Of a DNA stretch of 37,464 nucleotides, positions 3,289-24,131 are shown one piece after another (the first letter of the stretch is position 1; each line of letters begins with the position of its first letter). The notes below the pieces were generated by a model. The model searched no databases and was not told the DNA's origin. It worked only from the letters and a program-made list of their open reading frames with translations. Made by a program: the position numbers and the translations under genes. The stretch is from a virus. The DNA lies in IMG/VR virus record IMGVR_UViG_3300035682_000090, positions 1-37,464 of that record. The stretch is one strand, 5' to 3'.

Positions 3289-3494
3289 ACATTAGGTTGT
3301 TTCGTTCCCATCCCACATAGTGGGAATTGACCGTCCCCGTTAGGGAACGGCTGGGGGGGATATAGGGGGGGACAGAAAAACTGTCCCAATCAACGGAACG
3401 AAGTGTGAGTTGATTGGTTCAAGTAACTAGAACCTAGAAGCAATGTGCTGCCTAGATTGGCAGCACCAATAACCAAGTTAGCGTGGACAAACCA
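3289..3494. promoter_or_regulatory. Divergent control region with four inverted repeats
   Basis: This gap separates the late (minus) and early (plus) arms and must hold promoters for both. Four perfect inverted repeats lie in about 160 bases: TCCCAC-ATA-GTGGGA (3311-3325); GGGACAG-AAAAA-CTGTCCC (3369-3387); CCAATCAAC/GTTGATTGG with a 14-base loop (3386-3417); and GTGCTGCC-TAGATT-GGCAGCAC (3445-3466). None is followed by a T-tract, so they look like operators or RNA structures and not terminators. A GTTAGGGAACGG element lies at 3340-3350 and a GCRTGGACAA copy at 3481. No convincing -35/-10 pair was recognised on either strand. Confidence 0.6.
3481..3490 (+). promoter_or_regulatory. Intergenic GCRTGGACAA site before the early arm
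   Basis: GCGTGGACAA, extended TAGCGTGGACAAA, ends four bases before the first plus-strand start codon, in the place a ribosome site would occupy. The position suits an operator at the start of the early transcript. Confidence 0.65.
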
Positions 3495-4186: not shown

Positions 4187-4262
4187 TGTCTCCTAGCATA
4201 ACTGGCAATGCAACGGACTGTTAATCCGTCAAATCTTGGTTCAAACCCAAGGGAGACAGCCA
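4187..4262 (+). tRNA. tRNA-Asn(GTT) with encoded CCA
   Basis: All four arms pair. The acceptor is TGTCTCC/GGAGACA, the D-stem GCAT/ATGC, and the anticodon stem ACGGA/TCCGT with loop CTGTTAA (anticodon GTT at 4220-4222). The T-stem is CTTGG/CCAAG with loop TTCAAAC. The discriminator G is followed by an encoded CCA at 4260-4262. It lies directly after the basic-protein cluster and before a strong terminator, so it is probably processed from that transcript. It may supply Asn-AAC decoding for the Asn-rich virion proteins (inference). Confidence 0.95.
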
Positions 4263-4297: not shown

Positions 4298-4329
4298 CAT
4301 ATCCAAACCCATACACCACAAGCATTATA

Positions 4330-4339
4330 GCATGGACAA
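4330..4339 (+). promoter_or_regulatory. Intergenic GCRTGGACAA site downstream of the terminator
   Basis: Exact copy within TATAGCATGGACAAACC, preceded by CATTAT as a possible -10 box, just after the tRNA terminator and before the AT-rich run. The placement resembles the site at 10844. Confidence 0.65.
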
Positions 4340-5405: not shown

Positions 5406-5440
5406 TTGTCCACTATGTCCACGCTAATTTGGCATGGACA
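5406..5440. promoter_or_regulatory. Operator-like cluster of TGTCCA half-sites
   Basis: Three near-copies of the dispersed element in 35 bases: TTGTCCACT (5406-5414), TGTCCACGC (5416-5424) and GCATGGACA (5432-5440). The last two form an inverted pair separated by seven bases. The cluster ends about 25 bases before the start of the first clear early gene (5465), a classical operator position. Confidence 0.6.
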
Positions 5441-5464
5441 GTAAACAAAACATGAGGAGACATC

Positions 5465-5794
5465 ATGAAATTAGAAGCAATCAACCCAAAGGCTACGCCT
5501 TTTAAGGACGGTAAGACCGTTACCGTAGGAAATTGGCATTACGAGGACTTCAGTGACCTTGTGGATGTTCGTCAAGTGTTTCATTACAGTACCCTTATGG
5601 GTCAATTTGAGGATTCACCTGAATTTGGTTGGACATTTGAGCCAATTAGCGTTGGTCGTGGCAGTGTTTCGGACCAAAATGGCATGAATGCCATTATTGG
5701 TGGCGAATGGAAATACTACCGCAATGGTGGTGACCCTCGGTATGTTGCTTATGATGATGTCACGGTATTTCGTGGCTTTCCGATTGACTGCTAG
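5465..5794 (+). CDS. Hypothetical protein (109 aa)
   Basis: A 109-residue acidic-to-neutral protein with a strong ribosome site (GAGGAG, seven bases before the ATG). It is rich in Tyr, Trp, Phe, Asp and Gly and contains VGNWHYEDFSDLVDVRQVFHY near the middle, suggesting a compact beta-rich fold. No membrane helix, cysteine knuckle or known motif was recognised. It is the first clear gene after the non-coding region and lies directly behind an operator-like cluster, so it should be among the earliest expressed. Confidence 0.6.
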   Translation: MKLEAINPKATPFKDGKTVTVGNWHYEDFSDLVDVRQVFHYSTLMGQFEDSPEFGWTFEPISVGRGSVSDQNGMNAIIGGEWKYYRNGGDPRYVAYDDVTVFRGFPIDC

Positions 5795-5915: not shown

Positions 5916-7193
5916 ATGGGAGCAATAAAAGCGCCAACGATTGTTGGCATTAAACACAACACCGACACCGATTCGGCGGACTACACTTACCTAAAGGTAA
6001 ATGGGGAACCACGGACTACTCAACTTCGTTGGGCAGACCGTTCTACCCTTATGGCGATTGGCAAATACTGCAATGCTTTTGCAGGAAAAGGAACACCAGT
6101 TGGCATGGACAAGTCAGACATGTTGAATCATGTTCAAGTCCGTATCAAGGAACTAGGCGAGAAGAACAATTATGTTCCTCAGCCTTTCATGGAACCATCA
6201 CCTACGGCGAAAGTCGTGTTGAACAGTGCACCTCGTCAGGCTGAACCTAAGGGTTCATCCATTGACGATGCAGTCAAGCAACTCATGGAGTCAATGCTTG
6301 CCAGTGGTGTTATGACACCACCGACAACACAAATTGACCCTGCACAAATTGAAGCCCTACAGGCTCAAATTGACGACCTACAATTACAGGTCGCTAATCG
6401 TCCTGCTCCTGTGGTCATCGTTAACAATGGCGTAACATCTAAACCTACGGTCGGTGTTGTCCATGCTAAGTATGCAGACATCGCCAAGGCAATGATGTTA
6501 AGAATGAATGTGTACCTTGTAGGTCCAGCAGGGACTGGTAAGTCCACAATTCCACAGCAAATTGCAGAGCAAATGGGGTTGGAATTCAGTGCTGTATCTT
6601 GTGGTACTACGGATGCAAAATTTGACTATGTGGGGTTCCGTGATGGTCACGGTGTTCTGCATTCAACATCGTTCCGTGACAGATACGAAAATGGTGGTGT
6701 AATGCTACTGGACGAGATGGACAATGCATCACCCGATGTACTTGTGACACTGAATCAGGCTCTAAGCAATGGCATCATGGCGTTCCCTGACAAAATGGTC
6801 AAGAAACACCCCGACTTCATATTGGTTGCTGCAGGAAACACCTACGGTAGTGGGGCTACGGCTCAGTATGTCGGTAGGTCACCTATTGACGCTGCTACGA
6901 TGAATCGTTTCATCAAATTCGTTGTCGGTGTTGACGAGAACATTGAGAACGAGATGGTAGCGTCCACTGGCTTACTAGTCATTCACCAACTAAATTGGCT
7001 AGGCATTATCCGTAAGGCTAGAGCAAATTGTGAGGCATCAGGGCTACGAGTTATGGTTACACCACGAGATGCGAAACACGGTGCTAGCCTGTTGCACCTT
7101 GGTTTCACAGTGGCGGAAGCCATTGACATGACTTTCGGCTTCGGTCTTGAAGGTGTACAGCGTGACAAGGTACTTGCTGGTGTCACCCTGTAA
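5916..7193 (+). CDS. AAA+ ATPase of MoxR/CbbQ type
   Basis: A 425-residue protein. The N-terminal 180 residues contain an acidic coiled-coil-like stretch (about 115-162). A MoxR-like AAA+ domain follows: Walker A GPAGTGKST (203-211), Walker B VMLLDEMDN (262-270), a sensor-1-like AAGNT (306-309) and an arginine-finger candidate MNRF (R331). MoxR ATPases usually work with VWA-domain partners to remodel protein complexes or insert cofactors; the next gene encodes a VWA-like protein, so the two probably form such a pair. A good ribosome site (TTAGGAGA) precedes the ATG. The target in infection is unknown. Two copies of the dispersed 10-mer lie within the gene. Confidence 0.85.
   Translation: MGAIKAPTIVGIKHNTDTDSADYTYLKVNGEPRTTQLRWADRSTLMAIGKYCNAFAGKGTPVGMDKSDMLNHVQVRIKELGEKNNYVPQPFMEPSPTAKVVLNSAPRQAEPKGSSIDDAVKQLMESMLASGVMTPPTTQIDPAQIEALQAQIDDLQLQVANRPAPVVIVNNGVTSKPTVGVVHAKYADIAKAMMLRMNVYLVGPAGTGKSTIPQQIAEQMGLEFSAVSCGTTDAKFDYVGFRDGHGVLHSTSFRDRYENGGVMLLDEMDNASPDVLVTLNQALSNGIMAFPDKMVKKHPDFILVAAGNTYGSGATAQYVGRSPIDAATMNRFIKFVVGVDENIENEMVASTGLLVIHQLNWLGIIRKARANCEASGLRVMVTPRDAKHGASLLHLGFTVAEAIDMTFGFGLEGVQRDKVLAGVTL
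6103..6112 (+). repeat. Dispersed 10-mer GCATGGACAA
   Basis: Exact copy in the AAA+ gene, same strand as transcription, read as Gly-Met-Asp-Lys. Confidence 0.8.
6457..6466 (-). repeat. Dispersed 10-mer (minus orientation)
   Basis: TTGTCCATGC on the plus strand inside the AAA+ gene, antisense to transcription, read as Val-Val-His-Ala-Lys. Confidence 0.8.
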
Positions 7194-7218
7194 TGGGGTG
7201 GCACAGTCAAATTGGAAT

Positions 7219-7231
7219 CAAATTAGGAGAA
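7219..7231 (+). promoter_or_regulatory. Reiterated ribosome-binding leader CAAATTAGGAGAA
   Basis: The same 13 bases stand before four early genes: here and at 8127-8139, 8625-8637 and 8808-8820. Each lies five to eight bases before an ATG. A strong AGGAG core is preceded by a constant A/T enhancer, a shared high-efficiency translation cassette. Confidence 0.75.
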
Positions 7232-7235
7232 CATA

Positions 7236-8057
7236 ATGAACAAGGTAATTGACAAATTCAACTCATTCAGTGAGTTACTAGCGTATGCAAATACGAATCC
7301 TCATCTTGAGGAATCAAGCAATACTGGCGATGCAATATGGCATGGTGGCACATCTAATCTTGCTGAGGCAGTCAAATTGGCTACCGATGGTTGGCATGAT
7401 GAGCGTGACGCTTTGGATAAAATGCTACGAGTATTGCAGGAGCAAATTGGTGAGCGTTTCCAAACAGTTAAGCGTTCATACAATTCAGTATGTGGTGGTC
7501 GTGTTGACATGGGGCGTTTCCTTGGTGGTCGTCCTGACCATATGGTGGCGTACCGTAAGGTAGCCACTACTGCACAAGGCAAAATATGCCGACTCATATT
7601 GGACTACGGTGCTAATGGTTCCACCCCTGCAGAGCAAATGCTCAAGCGTGGTGTCACCATCACAGCACTTGTTGACCTACTGGCAACTATGGGTATCAGC
7701 ATTGAGTTGTGGGGTGAAACTACAATCAAGGTTGGCAAGGACCAAACACACACCACCTTGGTTCAAATGCACGACCCACGAGAGCCACTAGACATTGACT
7801 CGTTGATGTATGCCATTGCTCACCCTGCGATGCTACGCCGACTGACATTCTCAGTCCGTGAGAAGTGGTCAGGTGATGGTGGTGTTCGCAAAATGGCTTC
7901 ACATGGTCATGGCACTAGCATCCCAATCACATTCGCTAAGGAATTGCAATGCGATGTTGTGCTCAACCGTATTGAACATGGCGGTAGCGATGACATAATC
8001 AACAAGCCTGTTGAGTGGATAATGCAAACAATCAAGGGCTTAGGCTTGCTTGACTAG
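7236..8057 (+). CDS. VWA-like partner of the AAA+ ATPase (putative)
   Basis: A 273-residue protein encoded directly after the MoxR-like ATPase. The segment at residues 117-160 has the rhythm of a von Willebrand A domain: a buried strand (ICRLILDYGA), a loop with Ser-Thr, a helix with RGVTITALVDLL, then a second strand (GISIELWG). A canonical DxSxS metal site is not present, so the MIDAS would be degenerate. The N-terminal third resembles a phage family in which a Trp/Gly-rich NLAEAVKLATDGW motif recurs. A role as adaptor for the neighbouring ATPase is inferred from fold pattern and adjacency; it could be an unrelated Rossmann-like protein. Confidence 0.55.
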   Translation: MNKVIDKFNSFSELLAYANTNPHLEESSNTGDAIWHGGTSNLAEAVKLATDGWHDERDALDKMLRVLQEQIGERFQTVKRSYNSVCGGRVDMGRFLGGRPDHMVAYRKVATTAQGKICRLILDYGANGSTPAEQMLKRGVTITALVDLLATMGISIELWGETTIKVGKDQTHTTLVQMHDPREPLDIDSLMYAIAHPAMLRRLTFSVREKWSGDGGVRKMASHGHGTSIPITFAKELQCDVVLNRIEHGGSDDIINKPVEWIMQTIKGLGLLD

Positions 8058-9687: not shown

Positions 9688-10076
9688 AACACCTATTTAA
9701 GCCCAACACAAAAGTGCTCATGTTGGATACGCCAAACATTAGCCTGAATGCAGACATGGAAACAGGTGTGATTGAGCATCTGCAAATTAGGTTGAACAAT
9801 GCAGAGTTGAACTTCTTTGCGGAAGATGTGACCGAGTTTCTGAAAATGCTTGATTCGTTATCCGCTTGGCGAATGAAACATACGCCGTCACGGATGAAGA
9901 ACCCACCTGAACCAATTTGGTATGAGATGATTCTTCAGCGAGGACAATGTGAGGATTGCGATACATTCGTACCGTGGTTCTACCGAATGTGGGACGGTGA
10001 CGATATTGTCCGTCCATGCTTATGTTCCAAGTGCTCAGGAAAGTCAGGAGCGAACGATGACCGAACAATTTGGTGA
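9684..10076 (+). CDS. Hypothetical protein with C-terminal zinc site (130 aa)
   Basis: A 130-residue protein. The N-terminal two thirds appear as a mixed alpha/beta domain with an amphipathic helix (VTEFLKMLDSLSAWRM). The C-terminus has CEDC (about residues 91-94) and CLCSKC (about 114-119), consistent with a zinc ribbon. It overlaps the HTH regulator gene that follows by 20 bases, so the two are probably translated together. No family recognised. Confidence 0.6.
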   Translation: MKHLFKPNTKVLMLDTPNISLNADMETGVIEHLQIRLNNAELNFFAEDVTEFLKMLDSLSAWRMKHTPSRMKNPPEPIWYEMILQRGQCEDCDTFVPWFYRMWDGDDIVRPCLCSKCSGKSGANDDRTIW

Positions 10077-10824
10077 CGACTGGCTTGGGTGTGGCAACGC
10101 TGAACATCCACAAGAATGCTTGTGTGATGTTGTAATAACACATCCCACAAAATGGAATGCCGACTGTGTAAATGGTGTTCATATGGGTGCTCAAATCTGT
10201 GAACTCAGAGACTACAGCGTACCTTGGACTAGGGAGCAACTTGTCAACTACATGGATGACCTGATGCTATTTCAAGATGCACTACGAGGGTCCATAATCA
10301 CAAGCGAAACACCATCGTGGTACCCAACGGATACTTCACGAGTTAGCATGGAAACAATCAGACAAACAGTGGCGGAACATATGAACACAGAAAAACCAAA
10401 CATCCAAATAGTCCTAGATATATTGGGCATAACAGGGAAAGTATTTATGAGGGCAATAACCTGCAATCAGATACCTGAACTCAAATTAGCAAAATGGACT
10501 TCCCATTTGCTCAGTGAATTCCAGCGTGACCTAGAAGAAAATAAACTTTCGTTCCGTGAAATGATGAGAAAGTACGACCTAAGCAAAACTTCGTTCTACA
10601 ATCTCAAAGGCTACTTCATTCATGTATTACGACAAGATGCATCTGGTGTTCTGGTATCCACCAACCCTGAGCAACAAGCCAAAGCACGAGTAGTTGCCAA
10701 GCGTTTAATTGGAGAGGGATACGACAACAAAAAAATCGTTGAGTCTGTCTTTAACGAAACCCGTGTTCACTATACTTCTAGTGCTATATCAAAATTGCGT
10801 AGTCGCAATTCCGACCTAGGCTGA
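10057..10824 (+). CDS. Putative DNA-binding regulator with two HTH segments
   Basis: A 255-residue protein. The N-terminus is Cys/His-rich (C12, H17, C21, C23, C37, C48) and may bind zinc. The C-terminus carries two helix-turn-helix-like segments: residues 163-186 (LSFREMMRKYDLSKTSFYNL) and about 210-250 (AKRLIGEGYDNKKIVESVF, then SSAISKLRSRN), the second ending in basic residues. The start at 10057 is set by TCAGGAG seven bases upstream and lies inside the previous gene. The gene sits immediately before a perfect inverted pair of the genome-wide GCRTGGACAA element, so it is the best candidate for the protein that binds that element, possibly autoregulated. This assignment is inference; no named family was recognised. 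Confidence 0.55.
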   Translation: MTEQFGDDWLGCGNAEHPQECLCDVVITHPTKWNADCVNGVHMGAQICELRDYSVPWTREQLVNYMDDLMLFQDALRGSIITSETPSWYPTDTSRVSMETIRQTVAEHMNTEKPNIQIVLDILGITGKVFMRAITCNQIPELKLAKWTSHLLSEFQRDLEENKLSFREMMRKYDLSKTSFYNLKGYFIHVLRQDASGVLVSTNPEQQAKARVVAKRLIGEGYDNKKIVESVFNETRVHYTSSAISKLRSRNSDLG

Positions 10825-10843
10825 TACAATAGAACTTATAATA

Positions 10844-10853
10844 GCATGGACAA
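10844..10853 (+). repeat. Dispersed 10-mer GCATGGACAA (left arm of operator)
   Basis: Left arm of the inverted pair, just downstream of the TATAAT box. Confidence 0.85.
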
Positions 10854-10886
10854 GATAGGTAGTTATGTCTCCTTGTACTGTCTGTT

Positions 10887-10896
10887 TTGTCCATGC
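10887..10896 (-). repeat. Dispersed 10-mer (right arm of operator)
   Basis: Right arm of the inverted pair, in the leader about 12 bases before the AAGGAG ribosome site of the nuclease gene. Confidence 0.85.
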
Positions 10897-10919
10897 TACT
10901 ATTCTTGTAAGGAGATACA

Positions 10920-11753
10920 GTGAAAATAGATAATGAAAATAATACCGTGTGGGTGAGGCAATCTTGGCTCGGTGACATTCTTCTGTGCCCCGAACGAGCA
11001 AGGCTCGGCATTACAATGCCCTCGTTTCGCCGTGGCTCAGAAGCCACAGCAATCGGCACAGGGATGCACTCCGCCATTGAAGGAGTGCTGACTGGTGAAG
11101 TGGAACAGAATCAGGTTGTGATGACAGCAGTCGCTTTGGAACATGTGTTCTCCGAACTTGCTCAACCTGACATTGCCCGTGTTGACTACAGCGATGAAGA
11201 AGTCACAGGGTTTGTTCATGCCATGACTGACGCTTGGTATAACAACATCCAACCCGAAGTTGAATTTGGTGGTCAATGTGAACGCCAATTTAGCGTTCTC
11301 ACCGACCTAACAGTTGGACCATACAAATTGGGTTTCAGTGGCACAATGGACTATGTTACCCCTAGTGGCGTAATTTGGGATTGGAAAACGGCTGCCCGTA
11401 AATATTTCGCTAATGAAAAGCAGAAGCAATCTGTTCAAGCCTCGGTATATGGTTACGCTGTTAACCAATTTATGCCTGAAGTTGGCTACCCTGTTGACTT
11501 TAGGTTTGGTGTCATGTTGCGACATAAAAATCCCACGGCACAAATTCTGAAGATTACACGCTCCAAGGAGCAGATAAATTGGTTGCTGAAACAAACCTCA
11601 GGTATTGTTTCGCAACATTTAAACACAGGTTTAAACACCGAGTGGACAATGAATGACCAGCATTTTTTGTGTTCCGCTAAATGGTGTTCGTATTGGTCTG
11701 TCTGTAAGGGAGCCTATGTTGCACACGGTGACGGCTTCCCACCAGCCCAATGA
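10920..11753 (+). CDS. Cas4/RecB-like exonuclease with Fe-S cluster motif
   Basis: A 277-residue PD-(D/E)XK nuclease. Visible residues are C23 (LLCPERARL), H50 (GTGMHSAIE), D144 (GTMDYV), the D154-W-K156 core (WDWKTA), and a Q..Y motif near 173-177 (VQASVYGYA). Three C-terminal cysteines (C251, C256, C262) with C23 would hold a 4Fe-4S cluster, as in Cas4 and AddB. Such enzymes resect DNA ends for recombination or replication. There are no cas genes nearby, so the role is phage DNA metabolism. The start is GTG, eight bases after AAGGAG. It heads the replication block and lies directly behind the operator at 10837-10898. Confidence 0.85.
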   Translation: MKIDNENNTVWVRQSWLGDILLCPERARLGITMPSFRRGSEATAIGTGMHSAIEGVLTGEVEQNQVVMTAVALEHVFSELAQPDIARVDYSDEEVTGFVHAMTDAWYNNIQPEVEFGGQCERQFSVLTDLTVGPYKLGFSGTMDYVTPSGVIWDWKTAARKYFANEKQKQSVQASVYGYAVNQFMPEVGYPVDFRFGVMLRHKNPTAQILKITRSKEQINWLLKQTSGIVSQHLNTGLNTEWTMNDQHFLCSAKWCSYWSVCKGAYVAHGDGFPPAQ

Positions 11754-12366: not shown

Positions 12367-13473
12367 TTGGAAACACCAACCGAATTTGCTGACCGATGGG
12401 CGCAACTTGGGCGTGGGGAGAACATCTCCACGCCTGAGCCGTCTGTGGGACCAGCATCAAACACATACTACAAACCTTTAATCGGAGCCGTGGACGAGTA
12501 TGTTCATTGGGCACAAAACCCAGCCGAGCGTATCTACTTAGGTTTCCCCGAACTTGACCACGAAATCCGTGGCATAGCACCAGCAGAAATGTGCATCATC
12601 AACGGATACAGTCACTCAGGTAAGACATTGTTTCTGTTGCAGATACTTGTAGCGAACGCTGACAAGCCTGTTATTTATTTCTGTCCTGACGAGCCACGAA
12701 CATTGACGCTAATCAAATTGGCTTGTGTAATGCATGGTGTTGACGCTGCGTATTTAGAATATCAAATTGAACATCAAGACCCAGAAGCGATTGCGCTGCT
12801 CAAGCAGACAGCCGTGGAACACTTTCCCAATTTGGCTGTCTTTGACCAGTTCATGACACTTAGCGACATGGAAAAAGCCGTAGGCGAAATACAAGAACTA
12901 TGGGGCAAACCATCGTTGATTGTATTTGACTATTTGGAATTGCTAAATTCAGGTGATGGCGATGTGCCTAGCAAAGCCAACACGCTCAAAGCGTTTGGCA
13001 AGCGACACAATGTGCCGTTGCTTGTGCTACACCAGTCATCCCGTACCGCAGGTTCCGAAGGCAAGAAGATGACAATATCATCTGGCGCTTACGGTGGCGA
13101 ACAGCAGGCTACACACATCGTTGGTGTACGCCGTAAGCGTTTTGAAATAGAAGCGCAAATCCGTGAGATAGAAGAAAAACTAGACAAGAACACCGCCTCA
13201 GAACGGCTACTTGAACGGTTGGATGTACTGCGTTATGAACAACGCATACATCAACACACCATCACAATCAACCTTGTCAAATGCAAGCGCCCATCATCAC
13301 AACTATTGGATGACATGGACTTTGAAATTGAACAAGGCACAGGCAGGCTCACACGGCTAACTAACATACTGCCCACAGCAATGTGGCATAGCGAGGACAT
13401 GAAGCAATACGACACAGAAGTTGACAACGGGGCTACCGTGGATGTTAACTTGTTTGAGGACGACTGGATTTAG
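12367..13473 (+). CDS. DnaB/RecA-like replicative helicase
   Basis: A 368-residue RecA-fold ATPase with Walker A GYSHSGKT (80-87), Walker B LIVFDYLE (184-191) and the LVLHQSS motif (219-225) typical of DnaB-family helicases, followed by a charged helical segment (about 255-300) and an acidic tail. It lacks the DnaB N-terminal domain. Its likely role is unwinding at the phage fork together with the next-door primase. The start is TTG, four bases after AGGAG; no in-frame ATG is better placed. A TATAAT at 12341-12346 with TTGGGA 19 bases upstream could be an internal promoter. Confidence 0.85.
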   Translation: METPTEFADRWAQLGRGENISTPEPSVGPASNTYYKPLIGAVDEYVHWAQNPAERIYLGFPELDHEIRGIAPAEMCIINGYSHSGKTLFLLQILVANADKPVIYFCPDEPRTLTLIKLACVMHGVDAAYLEYQIEHQDPEAIALLKQTAVEHFPNLAVFDQFMTLSDMEKAVGEIQELWGKPSLIVFDYLELLNSGDGDVPSKANTLKAFGKRHNVPLLVLHQSSRTAGSEGKKMTISSGAYGGEQQATHIVGVRRKRFEIEAQIREIEEKLDKNTASERLLERLDVLRYEQRIHQHTITINLVKCKRPSSQLLDDMDFEIEQGTGRLTRLTNILPTAMWHSEDMKQYDTEVDNGATVDVNLFEDDWI

Positions 13474-13481
13474 GAGATGAA

Positions 13482-14393
13482 ATGTACAGCGACTTAGAAA
13501 AAGAAAAACTACAGGCAGGGTTCATCACCCTGTTCCGTGGCAGAGCAGATGTTTACGGACATGACGAAGGACGATGCGTTAAAGAACCACTGGATACTAG
13601 TGTGTTCAATCAGCATCTGACAGGTGGCAACAGCATCGGTGTCTATCCCATTGTCCCAACCCAAGGCGACTTCAAGGTCGTGTGGGGATGTTCAGACATT
13701 GACATTGAGGATATTGTTCGTGCTACCAATTTGCGTGACGCATTAAAAGAAGCAGGTGTAACATCCTATGTGGAACGGTCACGCTCCAAAGGTTACCATG
13801 TTTGGGTATTTGCACCTGAACTTGTCCACGCTAAAGACATGCGCCGTATGTTTCTCGCTGCCCATCAGGTTGCAGACATACCGCCCATTGAAGTAAACCC
13901 CAAGCAAGAAACACTGAACGGCACCAACTACGGTAACTATGTCAGGCTCCCATACCCTAATGGTCTGAATGAAATGCCCACAAGGCGTGTCATTCTTGAC
14001 CGCACCAACCAACCAGTCCCTATGGATATGTTCATCCCTTATGCTCTTGAGCATCGCACAGACCCCACGCTAATTACCAAATTGGCTGGCTACTATACGG
14101 AGCCTGTGTATCAACACACGGCTCCATTGCAGATGGACACACCCACTAGCGTTCGTGACGCACTAACTAACCTGAGTCCTTTGGGCAAGGTTATTTGGCG
14201 TGACGGACCACTGCCTAGCAAGGACAGGTCAACAACCCTGAGCCACCTAGGACATGAGTGTGTGCGTAGTGGGCTTAACCCATCTGAGACTCGCACAGTG
14301 ATAGCCGATGCCGACAGGCGTTGGGGCAAGTATCATCTGCGTACAAACGGAGACATGGAAATAGACAAATTAGTTATGAGAGTATTCCGATGA
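13482..14393 (+). CDS. Archaeo-eukaryotic-type primase (AEP superfamily)
   Basis: A 303-residue protein with the AEP catalytic layout: metal-binding D72-x-D74 (CSDIDIED), the S-x-G-Y-H motif (SKGYHVW, S102-H106) and a third motif GNYVRLPYPN. A C-terminal helical domain (about 215-303) would be the primase-associated part. It resembles primases of phage replication modules and TOTE-type primase domains. Function: RNA or DNA primers for phage replication, with the adjacent DnaB-like helicase. The ATG at 13482 has TAGGAG nearby. It overlaps the resolvase start by four bases (ATGA). One dispersed 10-mer lies within it. Confidence 0.85.
   Translation: MYSDLEKEKLQAGFITLFRGRADVYGHDEGRCVKEPLDTSVFNQHLTGGNSIGVYPIVPTQGDFKVVWGCSDIDIEDIVRATNLRDALKEAGVTSYVERSRSKGYHVWVFAPELVHAKDMRRMFLAAHQVADIPPIEVNPKQETLNGTNYGNYVRLPYPNGLNEMPTRRVILDRTNQPVPMDMFIPYALEHRTDPTLITKLAGYYTEPVYQHTAPLQMDTPTSVRDALTNLSPLGKVIWRDGPLPSKDRSTTLSHLGHECVRSGLNPSETRTVIADADRRWGKYHLRTNGDMEIDKLVMRVFR
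13822..13831 (-). repeat. Dispersed 10-mer (minus orientation)
   Basis: TTGTCCACGC within the primase gene, antisense to transcription, read as Leu-Val-His-Ala. Confidence 0.8.
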
Positions 14394-14787: not shown

Positions 14788-15255
14788 ATGGCTAAGAACT
14801 TATCAGACTACGACATTCCTGCTCGTAGATATGATTTTCAAGAGGACTTAAAGTTTGGTCACAAGGGTGAAGCCTTGGTGACCGAGTTCCTTGACGCTCT
14901 TAGTGGGGGTGCCTTTGAGGTTAAAACAGACCGCTATAGGAATGGTCGCATGGTGATTGAAACATCCCAAAACCCTAGACGCAAATTAGATGATGAAGGT
15001 AACGCATTCTGGAAGCCGTCTGGCTTGATGGTTACCAAGGCTGCGTGGTGGGTGTATGTTTATACACTAGATGGGGGCGAAGGCGCTTTCATTGTAGTCA
15101 ATGTCAAGCGCATGAAGCGTTGGCTTAAAGAAAACAAAAAGATTATAAAACTCAAAGAGTTTGCATGGTCGTCCAGCAACCCATCCAAAGGTTACTTGTT
15201 GGAACCTGAACAAGTTATGGATATGCTAATCAGCAAGGACTATGATGCTGTTTGA
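14788..15255 (+). CDS. Small PD-(D/E)XK-like nuclease (putative)
   Basis: A 155-residue protein. Residues 21-60 read KFGHKGEALVTEFLDAL, then FEVKTDRYRNGR and VIETS. The G-x-x-G-E helix followed by E44-V-K46 and a later E58 is the pattern of a restriction-endonuclease-like fold, and WKPSGLMVTKAAWWVYVY continues it. Phage proteins of this type may recognise modified or branched DNA; the substrate here is unknown. Its start has no ribosome site but a TATAAT five bases upstream, suggesting a leaderless mRNA. It overlaps the next gene by 14 bases. Confidence 0.6.
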   Translation: MAKNLSDYDIPARRYDFQEDLKFGHKGEALVTEFLDALSGGAFEVKTDRYRNGRMVIETSQNPRRKLDDEGNAFWKPSGLMVTKAAWWVYVYTLDGGEGAFIVVNVKRMKRWLKENKKIIKLKEFAWSSSNPSKGYLLEPEQVMDMLISKDYDAV

Positions 15256-16060
15256 GCCACCTGCAAAGGTCAATGTACATAACCCTACAGAACTGTTGAT
15301 GTCGCCATTTGTGCATGACCTTGACATTCGTGATTGGGAAACCATTGAAGCCGTTGCCGATTGCATGGAGCAACTACAGGACCCACACAAATCCATTATA
15401 GAACTTGTCTTTTACCATCGTGTACCTTACAGCCAACTTGCGCCCCTGCTTGGTACTAAAGCCAAAAGTTATGCTTGGCGACAGGCTAAAAAAGCCATCT
15501 CTGAATTTGAAAAAATACTATTGGAACACCCAAAGATAAAGGAAAAATATATGACATTTGACAACTGGAATGATAACGCCAAGAAAGAATTGGATTATTT
15601 CTACAGCAAAGAAAAAGAACACGAAACAAACATCAATGAAGATGCAATCTCCATTGATTTATTGAAACCCCAGAAAATGCTTGCCAACTATATTGACGAC
15701 TTGCAATTTGGAGAAGGCATCACCACCGTCAGCGTACTCAGTGCGTTTGATGTTACGGGCTACCTGAGTGCAATATACTTATCCAGCAAAGGCGTGGACA
15801 AACACGACATGCTTGAGTTGTTGGTGTCCAAGCAACACGACTACGGTCATCGCAACATTACGCTCACGGGCTTTGTTGGGTTGGCTGTCAGGATGTGCGA
15901 TAAAATCGCACGACTGAACCACCTGTTGGAATATCGCCAAGGCAACAGTAGCAACGAACCAATCTTGGACACTTGGAAAGACATCCTTGGATACTCTGTT
16001 ATTGCAGAGATGATGGCTAACAACACATTCAAAACACCACTAAAAGAGGATATGAAATGA
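15242..16060 (+). CDS. Sigma-region-4-like HTH fused to a DUF1599 domain
   Basis: A 272-residue two-domain protein. Residues 33-93 resemble sigma-70 region 4: a helical lead with IIELVFYHRVPYSQLAPLLG, then a basic recognition-like helix (SYAWRQAKKAISEFEKIL). Residues 195-258 match DUF1599 (nucleotide-modification-associated domain 1, name from memory): KQHDYGHRN, then VGLAVRMCDKIARLNHLL and DTWKDILGYSVIAEMM. DUF1599 is all-helical and linked to nucleotide metabolism in phages. The fusion is unusual and could couple transcription to nucleotide state, which is speculative. Two adjacent ATGs (15242, 15245) are possible starts. One dispersed 10-mer lies within it. Confidence 0.65.
   Translation: MMLFEPPAKVNVHNPTELLMSPFVHDLDIRDWETIEAVADCMEQLQDPHKSIIELVFYHRVPYSQLAPLLGTKAKSYAWRQAKKAISEFEKILLEHPKIKEKYMTFDNWNDNAKKELDYFYSKEKEHETNINEDAISIDLLKPQKMLANYIDDLQFGEGITTVSVLSAFDVTGYLSAIYLSSKGVDKHDMLELLVSKQHDYGHRNITLTGFVGLAVRMCDKIARLNHLLEYRQGNSSNEPILDTWKDILGYSVIAEMMANNTFKTPLKEDMK
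15792..15801 (+). repeat. Dispersed 10-mer GCGTGGACAA
   Basis: Exact copy in the DUF1599 fusion gene, co-directional, read as Gly-Val-Asp-Lys. Confidence 0.8.
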
Positions 16061-22959: not shown

Positions 22960-24131
22960 TACTTCTTCTTAATTTTTGTCTTAGTCTGTGTCAACATAGG
23001 AACTAAACCACGAGCCTGCTGGGTAAAGGGCGTTACTCCAGCCTCTGCCAATTTAGCCATACGCTCATTAATAATCTGTGCAGCCTTAGTGGCGATACGC
23101 TGTTCTGATTGGTTTTTCAAATTCAAATTCAAAGCACCAGTAGAATTTTTTAAAGCCTCTTGATACGCTTTTTGTTGCGCTGCAGTATTTCCAACATTTA
23201 CTTCAGATTGAGGTTTGCCTTTTGAAAATGGGTTGTAACCACCAGCAGTAAAAAACCCACCAGCCAATTTAGTTAAACCAGCCAAACCAGTACCAATTAT
23301 TTCATTAACTGCTCTTGTTCCAAGTTGTTTGTTTCCCAAAATGGATTCAGGAACATAAGCCTTAGTTTGTTCACCACCAGAACCAAAAAACCTATTAATT
23401 TGATTAGTAGTAGGGTCACCCTGACTAGGGTCCATAGCGTTAGCACTAATCTTTGTAGCCATTGCTTTGTCCATGCTAGTAGGAACATACTTTTGCTGAC
23501 CAAAACGGTCAGACACTAAAGCCTCACGATTAATAGCATAAGTCTGGCTAGGGTCAACCAAGTTAGCCAAACTAGGAATACCTAACCTAGTAGCCAAAGC
23601 ACCAGCACCAGTACCTGTACCACCAGTTTGCTTTAAAAAAGCGTTGTACTGTTGTTTTTGCAAAGCAGCATTTTGTGTTGCTTTTGCATCAACATACTTA
23701 GAAGCATCAGTGGACAAATCAGCAATTAAACCTGCAACATCGGCTTGTGTTACACCAAACTGTTTTAAATTTTCATCAGTCATTTTAGTGACTGCAGTCA
23801 TTGGGTCTGTGCCTTGGTCAATAGCATCAAAAATATAACTAGCAATTTGCTGTTCAACAGGTGAACGCTGTGAATATTTTAAACGCACCGAATTGTTAAG
23901 AGCCTCAAATGGCGCAGCATCCGTAGTGTAGGTTTGAGCAGGGTCAAAGGTTCCACCACCAGCAGTAGAAATCTGTTGACCCAAAGCCGACAACAACCTA
24001 GGGTCAGCCAGCAATTTAGATAGCAAACCAGACTGTGTAACATTGCTGCCCACAAGGTCAGAAATGTTACCGCCAGCAACAATGTAGTCAATCAACTGTT
24101 GGGTTGTGTAGTTAACAGGTTTTGCAGCCAT
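22959..24131 (-). CDS. Probable internal virion protein (390 aa)
   Basis: A 390-residue Ala/Thr/Gln/Lys-rich protein beginning MAAKPVNYTTQQLIDY and ending KTKIKKK. It has no membrane helix or catalytic motif. It shares one base with both neighbouring genes and lies between two similar proteins and the giant ejection protein, the place of T7 gp15. Role as an ejected internal protein or core component is inferred from order and composition. Confidence 0.55.
   Translation of the reverse strand: MAAKPVNYTTQQLIDYIVAGGNISDLVGSNVTQSGLLSKLLADPRLLSALGQQISTAGGGTFDPAQTYTTDAAPFEALNNSVRLKYSQRSPVEQQIASYIFDAIDQGTDPMTAVTKMTDENLKQFGVTQADVAGLIADLSTDASKYVDAKATQNAALQKQQYNAFLKQTGGTGTGAGALATRLGIPSLANLVDPSQTYAINREALVSDRFGQQKYVPTSMDKAMATKISANAMDPSQGDPTTNQINRFFGSGGEQTKAYVPESILGNKQLGTRAVNEIIGTGLAGLTKLAGGFFTAGGYNPFSKGKPQSEVNVGNTAAQQKAYQEALKNSTGALNLNLKNQSEQRIATKAAQIINERMAKLAEAGVTPFTQQARGLVPMLTQTKTKIKKK
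23467..23476 (-). repeat. Dispersed 10-mer (minus orientation)
   Basis: Exact copy, co-directional, read as Ser-Met-Asp-Lys. Confidence 0.8.

Follow-up and report, generated by a model that had tools for sequence, protein, structure and literature searches.

The locus considered here raises the question of what reads a perfect 12-bp inverted repeat situated just ahead of the replication genes of a virus, and what that reading accomplishes. The window, which is the whole stretch of DNA analysed, is a virus record of 37,464 bases with 45% G+C, from an uncultured phage. The left site, TAGCATGGACAA (10842..10853, + strand), has its core GCATGGACA at 10844-10852, and the right site, which appears as TTGTCCATGCTA on the + strand (10887..10898, - strand), has its core at 10888-10896. 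Both arms are exact and stand 33 nt apart, and their extended form covers 26 nt at 81%. A TATAAT sequence, a -10-like box and putative promoter element (10837..10842, +), shares its last T with the left site, and the pair is flanked by a multi-HTH ORF ending at 10824 and a nuclease gene starting at 10920. The preliminary description of this DNA was correct as to the perfect repeat, the contact of its first arm with TATAAT (an overlap of one base), and the placement between the HTH protein and the nuclease. It had also proposed that the arms form an operator and main switch bound by the upstream HTH protein, and this part is not supported by the evidence discussed below. The arms are better viewed as two copies of a dispersed word that probably (at roughly 0.7) serves as the recognition, or priming, site of the archaeo-eukaryotic primase (AEP) encoded by the phage, with the pair as a candidate origin.

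Genomic context and conservation of the pair

The record encodes a P22-like portal, a TerL and a capsid protein. It has no megablast match to known phages, and the best TerL among known phage records shares 50% identity, leaving no close relative there. IMG/VR holds at least 378 stretches encoding a TerL relative, and a TerL search of genome contigs for prophages returned one distant contig only and no close prophage. The rightward replication block opens with a PD-(D/E)XK nuclease (10920..11753, +; PF12705, 5e-10; phrog_69), the first gene after the site pair, followed by a DnaB-like helicase (12367..13473, +; PF03796, phrog_19), the AEP primase (13482..14393, +; PF22548, 2e-20) and RusA. The proteins scanned, a subset of ORFs, include no DNA polymerase, integrase, ParA or parABS system; as no phage polymerase is found among them, the phage likely uses a host polymerase, as RSF1010 does. 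A MoxR-type AAA ATPase followed by a DUF7192 protein (5916-8057) forms a pair of genes kept in most relatives.

The nuclease-upstream pair is special by its position. The right site is the copy with the most conserved position in the phage family. Of 65 relatives, 46 have a site directed toward the gene within the 145 nt upstream of the nuclease gene and 22 have a facing pair there, compared with 6% and 0.5% of random 145-nt windows. The earlier view of this locus as the best-organised copy is upheld, in that its placement is the most conserved among the copies and lies at promoter-like sequence before the replication operon. The suggested comparison of the intergenic region in related phages also shows the arms to be conserved: in a near relative (L001/L008, 90.7% identity overall), the 60-base interval 10839-10898, which takes in the left site, is unchanged in L001, compared with 87% identity for the stretch as a whole, and the 12-mers of aligned sites diverge by about 1% versus 9% over the whole alignment. 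Extended -10-like boxes of the form TGTTA.. precede the nuclease-upstream site in several relatives, making a promoter role possible, and from this promoter-proximal placement the pair may also take part in regulation.

A dispersed array on both strands

The 12-mer occurs in the window as five exact copies and as 35 copies within two mismatches, where 4.08 are expected and the maximum in 100 shuffles is 9, which substantiates the earlier recognition of a dispersed element. The other exact copies lie in a divergent control region (4328..4339, +) that also holds a tRNA-Asn (GTT) gene (4187-4262), within the AAA ATPase gene (6457..6468, -) and within a late gene (23467..23478, -). At the level of the core, the window holds about 38 sites, 19 per strand. 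Across 13 genomes of about 37 kb each, the pattern GC[AG][TGA]GGACA has 17-39 copies per genome, and a reversed-pattern control with a closely similar pattern gives 0-2 matches per record. The array is a family trait carried by most of the relatives examined; an array of this form is absent from outgroups with divergent TerL, and MW202803 (50% TerL identity) is without it.

Site number is equal on both strands, orientation relative to genes is sense for 173 sites and antisense for 144 in the 13 genomes, and density is 0.76 per kb in early and 0.73 per kb in late regions. Most sites fall within genes with no avoidance of coding sequence, and they occur in each of the three sense reading frames. 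Gaps between sites on a given strand average 1.7-2.8 kb, or about one site per 2 kb, and the spacing is more regular than expected at random (24 strand sets, Fisher 6e-26, the genomes being related). A linkage of the sites to hairpins was considered and rejected, as there is no general hairpin enrichment beside them, unlike at RSF1010 ssiA, and only the copy near TerS has a conserved inverted repeat nearby.

Site dialects covary with two primase residues

The word exists in dialects that differ at one base, GC..[G|A|C]GACA. G002 and G003 carry GC..AGACA, G021 and G022 carry GC..CGACA, and G016 is relaxed at this base. One base changed coherently at dozens of sites implies that the reader of the sites has changed. 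A screen of seven early proteins for columns associated with the dialect singled out only two, both in the AEP primase. In approximately 2,460 columns from 11 early proteins, full separation of the dialects is confined to primase positions 258 and 262, the next best column reaching 0.78. TerS is rejected as reader, its best column separating the dialects at only 0.62.

Primase residues and site letter agree in all 70 classifiable distinct loci, part of which were collected by a search whose patterns excluded columns 258 and 262. H258 with R262 accompanies G (54/54 loci), Y258 with K, N, E or D at 262 accompanies A (14/14), and W with K or F with E accompanies C (2/2). Four loci are unclassified ("mix"), namely three with HE or YR and one with HR; G is the commonest letter in every HR locus, and in the one YR phage the letter is relaxed (A18, G17, T16). 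On a tree built from the catalytic domain only, the dialect changes seven times, and independent contrasts are all concordant, numbering seven over all branches and three over strongly supported branches, the three alone being too few for sign-test significance. Among the relatives, the site before the nuclease gene switches its letter along with the primase: 35 HR phages have G there, nine Y phages have A, and the FE phage has C. Judged by these evolutionary comparisons, the dialect follows the primase and not the upstream HTH protein, which suggests that the primase determines the sequence used as a site. The covariation identifies the reader of the site and not the effect of the reading. 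The primases of L319 and L320 have H258 with E262 (AHICAES); an array of this form was not found in these two HE phages, which may use a different word.

The catalytic residues of the primase, a DxD motif (D72, D74) and SRSKGYH with H106, are invariant in A4, and the closest solved relative of its catalytic domain is the CAPP Prim-Pol of Marinitoga (E 4e-16 by sequence, Z 22 by fold). An AlphaFold2 model (mean pLDDT 83.6) predicts a C-terminal bundle of five helices at residues ~224-303 (14151..14390, +). The codons for H258 to R262 (14253..14267, +) belong to helix 249-262 of this predicted bundle, where the two dialect-tracking residues stand in an i,i+4 relation, one turn apart. The primase has no match to Pfam PriCT, and RSF1010 RepB' spans the model at an rmsd of 16 with no clean superposition on a solved bundle.

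Possible function of the sites

Since AEP helix bundles bind template recognition sites, the covariation is most simply read as marking the word as a primase recognition site. The C-terminal helix bundle of the primase would recognise a word of 9-11 nt, which is TRGCRKGGACAR on one strand and the complementary sequence on the other. Residues 258 and 262 would select one base of this word, and primers would be started next to it. With about 20 sites per strand, or one per 2 kb, strand synthesis would have fixed starts genome-wide. The facing pair before the replication operon would provide one site per strand, as ssiA and ssiB do in RSF1010, and is a candidate replication start because facing sites on opposite strands fit the needs of a bidirectional or strand-displacement start. 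That the primase physically binds the word, that primers are made there and that the pair acts as an origin is inferred from the patterns described above. The length of the word counts against a priming function, as most template motifs known for AEPs span 3-8 nt and the phage word is longer. Primase start positions are usually loosely specified, and template-base choice by AEP primase helix bundles is, to our knowledge, known from very few enzymes. The full combination of some 20 fixed starts per strand, a two-residue code in the helix bundle, repeated specificity switches with all sites following, and an origin at the pair has about an even chance of being right. If true, primase specificity would become readable as a code, each primer start of a phage could be predicted from its sequence, and orthogonal primase/site pairs of natural origin would be at hand. 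The tracking of one base by two residues at dozens of genomic sites in many phages constitutes a natural evolutionary experiment.

Alternative roles and readers

The alternative that survives best retains the primase as reader and alters the outcome, such that it would recognise the sites as double-stranded sites for regulation or origin licensing (operon autoregulation, helicase loading or packaging choice) and not as primer starts. This is unlikely, though it accommodates the location of the most conserved copy at a -10-like box before the operon encoding the primase and of a second conserved copy in the TerS/early divergent region. Approximately 40 evenly spaced and mostly intragenic sites on two strands are, however, hard to reconcile with autoregulation, and the domain type is known to read single-stranded template.

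Far less probable is the reading closest to the preliminary description, in which the sites are operators or stoperators read by the upstream three-HTH protein (10057..10824, +), as in the Cluster A mycobacteriophages. The resemblance extends to dispersed asymmetric sites, per-genome variants, a promoter-proximal copy and an adjoining HTH gene. In Cluster A, however, stoperators follow the direction of transcription and have the immunity repressor as reader (PMC6550527, PMC9283540), whereas the phage sites have no orientation bias, are mostly intragenic, occur at equal density in the early and the late regions, and covary with a primase. The HTH protein evolves fast, including in its helices, and has no dialect-linked column; its third HTH is missing in G013 and the first two are missing in G003, with the array kept in both. 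The lack, among the proteins scanned, of the integrase or parABS expected of a temperate phage and the lack of a close prophage in the genome collection may also count against this role. The protein carries an N-terminal C-x4-H-x3-C-x-C motif, different ones of its predicted HTH units are lost in different phages, and its fold model is weak (pLDDT 69), with a Pax-6 half-domain as its best but uninformative match (Z 5.7).

Still less credible as reader is a sigma-region-4-like protein, the N-terminal part of 15242-16060, acting as a phage transcription factor. Its sigma-4 match and a recognition helix, KAKS[HY]AWRK, that is near-invariant in 13/13 sampled genomes speak for it, but this helix is the same across the G, A and C dialects and its best dialect column reaches 0.67. 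The HTH domain (15242-15541, +; also L150-L214) is fused to a phrog_1485 domain here and is a separate gene of ~107 aa in most relatives. The least probable reading, a host-derived word such as Chi or a DNA uptake sequence, shares the two-strand distribution, even spacing and intragenic location of the sites but is at odds with a letter that changes together with a protein of the phage within a single phage family. DnaA boxes were also rejected: TTGTCCAYGC resembles the actinobacterial box TTGTCCACA, but the invariant positions differ.

Relation to known priming systems

The primase reading finds its nearest counterpart in the IncQ plasmid RSF1010, where ssiA and ssiB are template motifs for the helix bundle of an AEP primase, with one ssi per strand accompanied by a hairpin (PMC4434180). 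The phage resembles the RepB' system in an element-encoded AEP primase with a C-terminal helix bundle (predicted in the phage), a separate helicase and specific single-strand initiation sites on opposite strands (candidate sites in the phage); it differs in the number of sites, about 20 on each strand, and in their lack of a general hairpin. On the primase reading, the phage sites work like RSF1010 ssi and are not members of the ssi type proper, given that hairpin enrichment is absent. The helix bundle of pRN1 ORF904 reads template GTG (PMC8076596) and that of the NrS-1 primase-polymerase reads TTTGGTTA or GTGA (PMC8718748), the primer beginning just upstream in both cases. These systems share with the proposed phage mechanism a template word read by a helix bundle, whereas their words are shorter. 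Their sites are not known to have a hairpin, which is a feature of RSF1010 ssiA, and neither a genome-wide array nor a residue-letter code is known to us for either enzyme. The CAPP enzyme, although closest in its catalytic domain, is CRISPR-linked and not a phage replication protein. We know of no dispersed sites associated with it.

Sites in the TerS and early region

The interval from TerS to the first rightward gene contains a site (3479..3490, +); 13 of 14 genomes have a site at this place, and in G002 and G003 it carries the local dialect. At ~3400-3470 in the same divergent region, most relatives have an inverted repeat, e.g., GCTGCC..GGCAGC, 20-30 bp from the conserved site. Its sequence varies between relatives with pairing retained, and it is possibly a second initiation site or a terminator. 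Farther along, a back-to-back inverted site pair (5415..5441) precedes the gene at 5465. In six relatives (e.g., G006, G008 and G020), a site overlaps the start of TerS as GC-ATG-GAC-A, and the protein begins with MDN or MDS.
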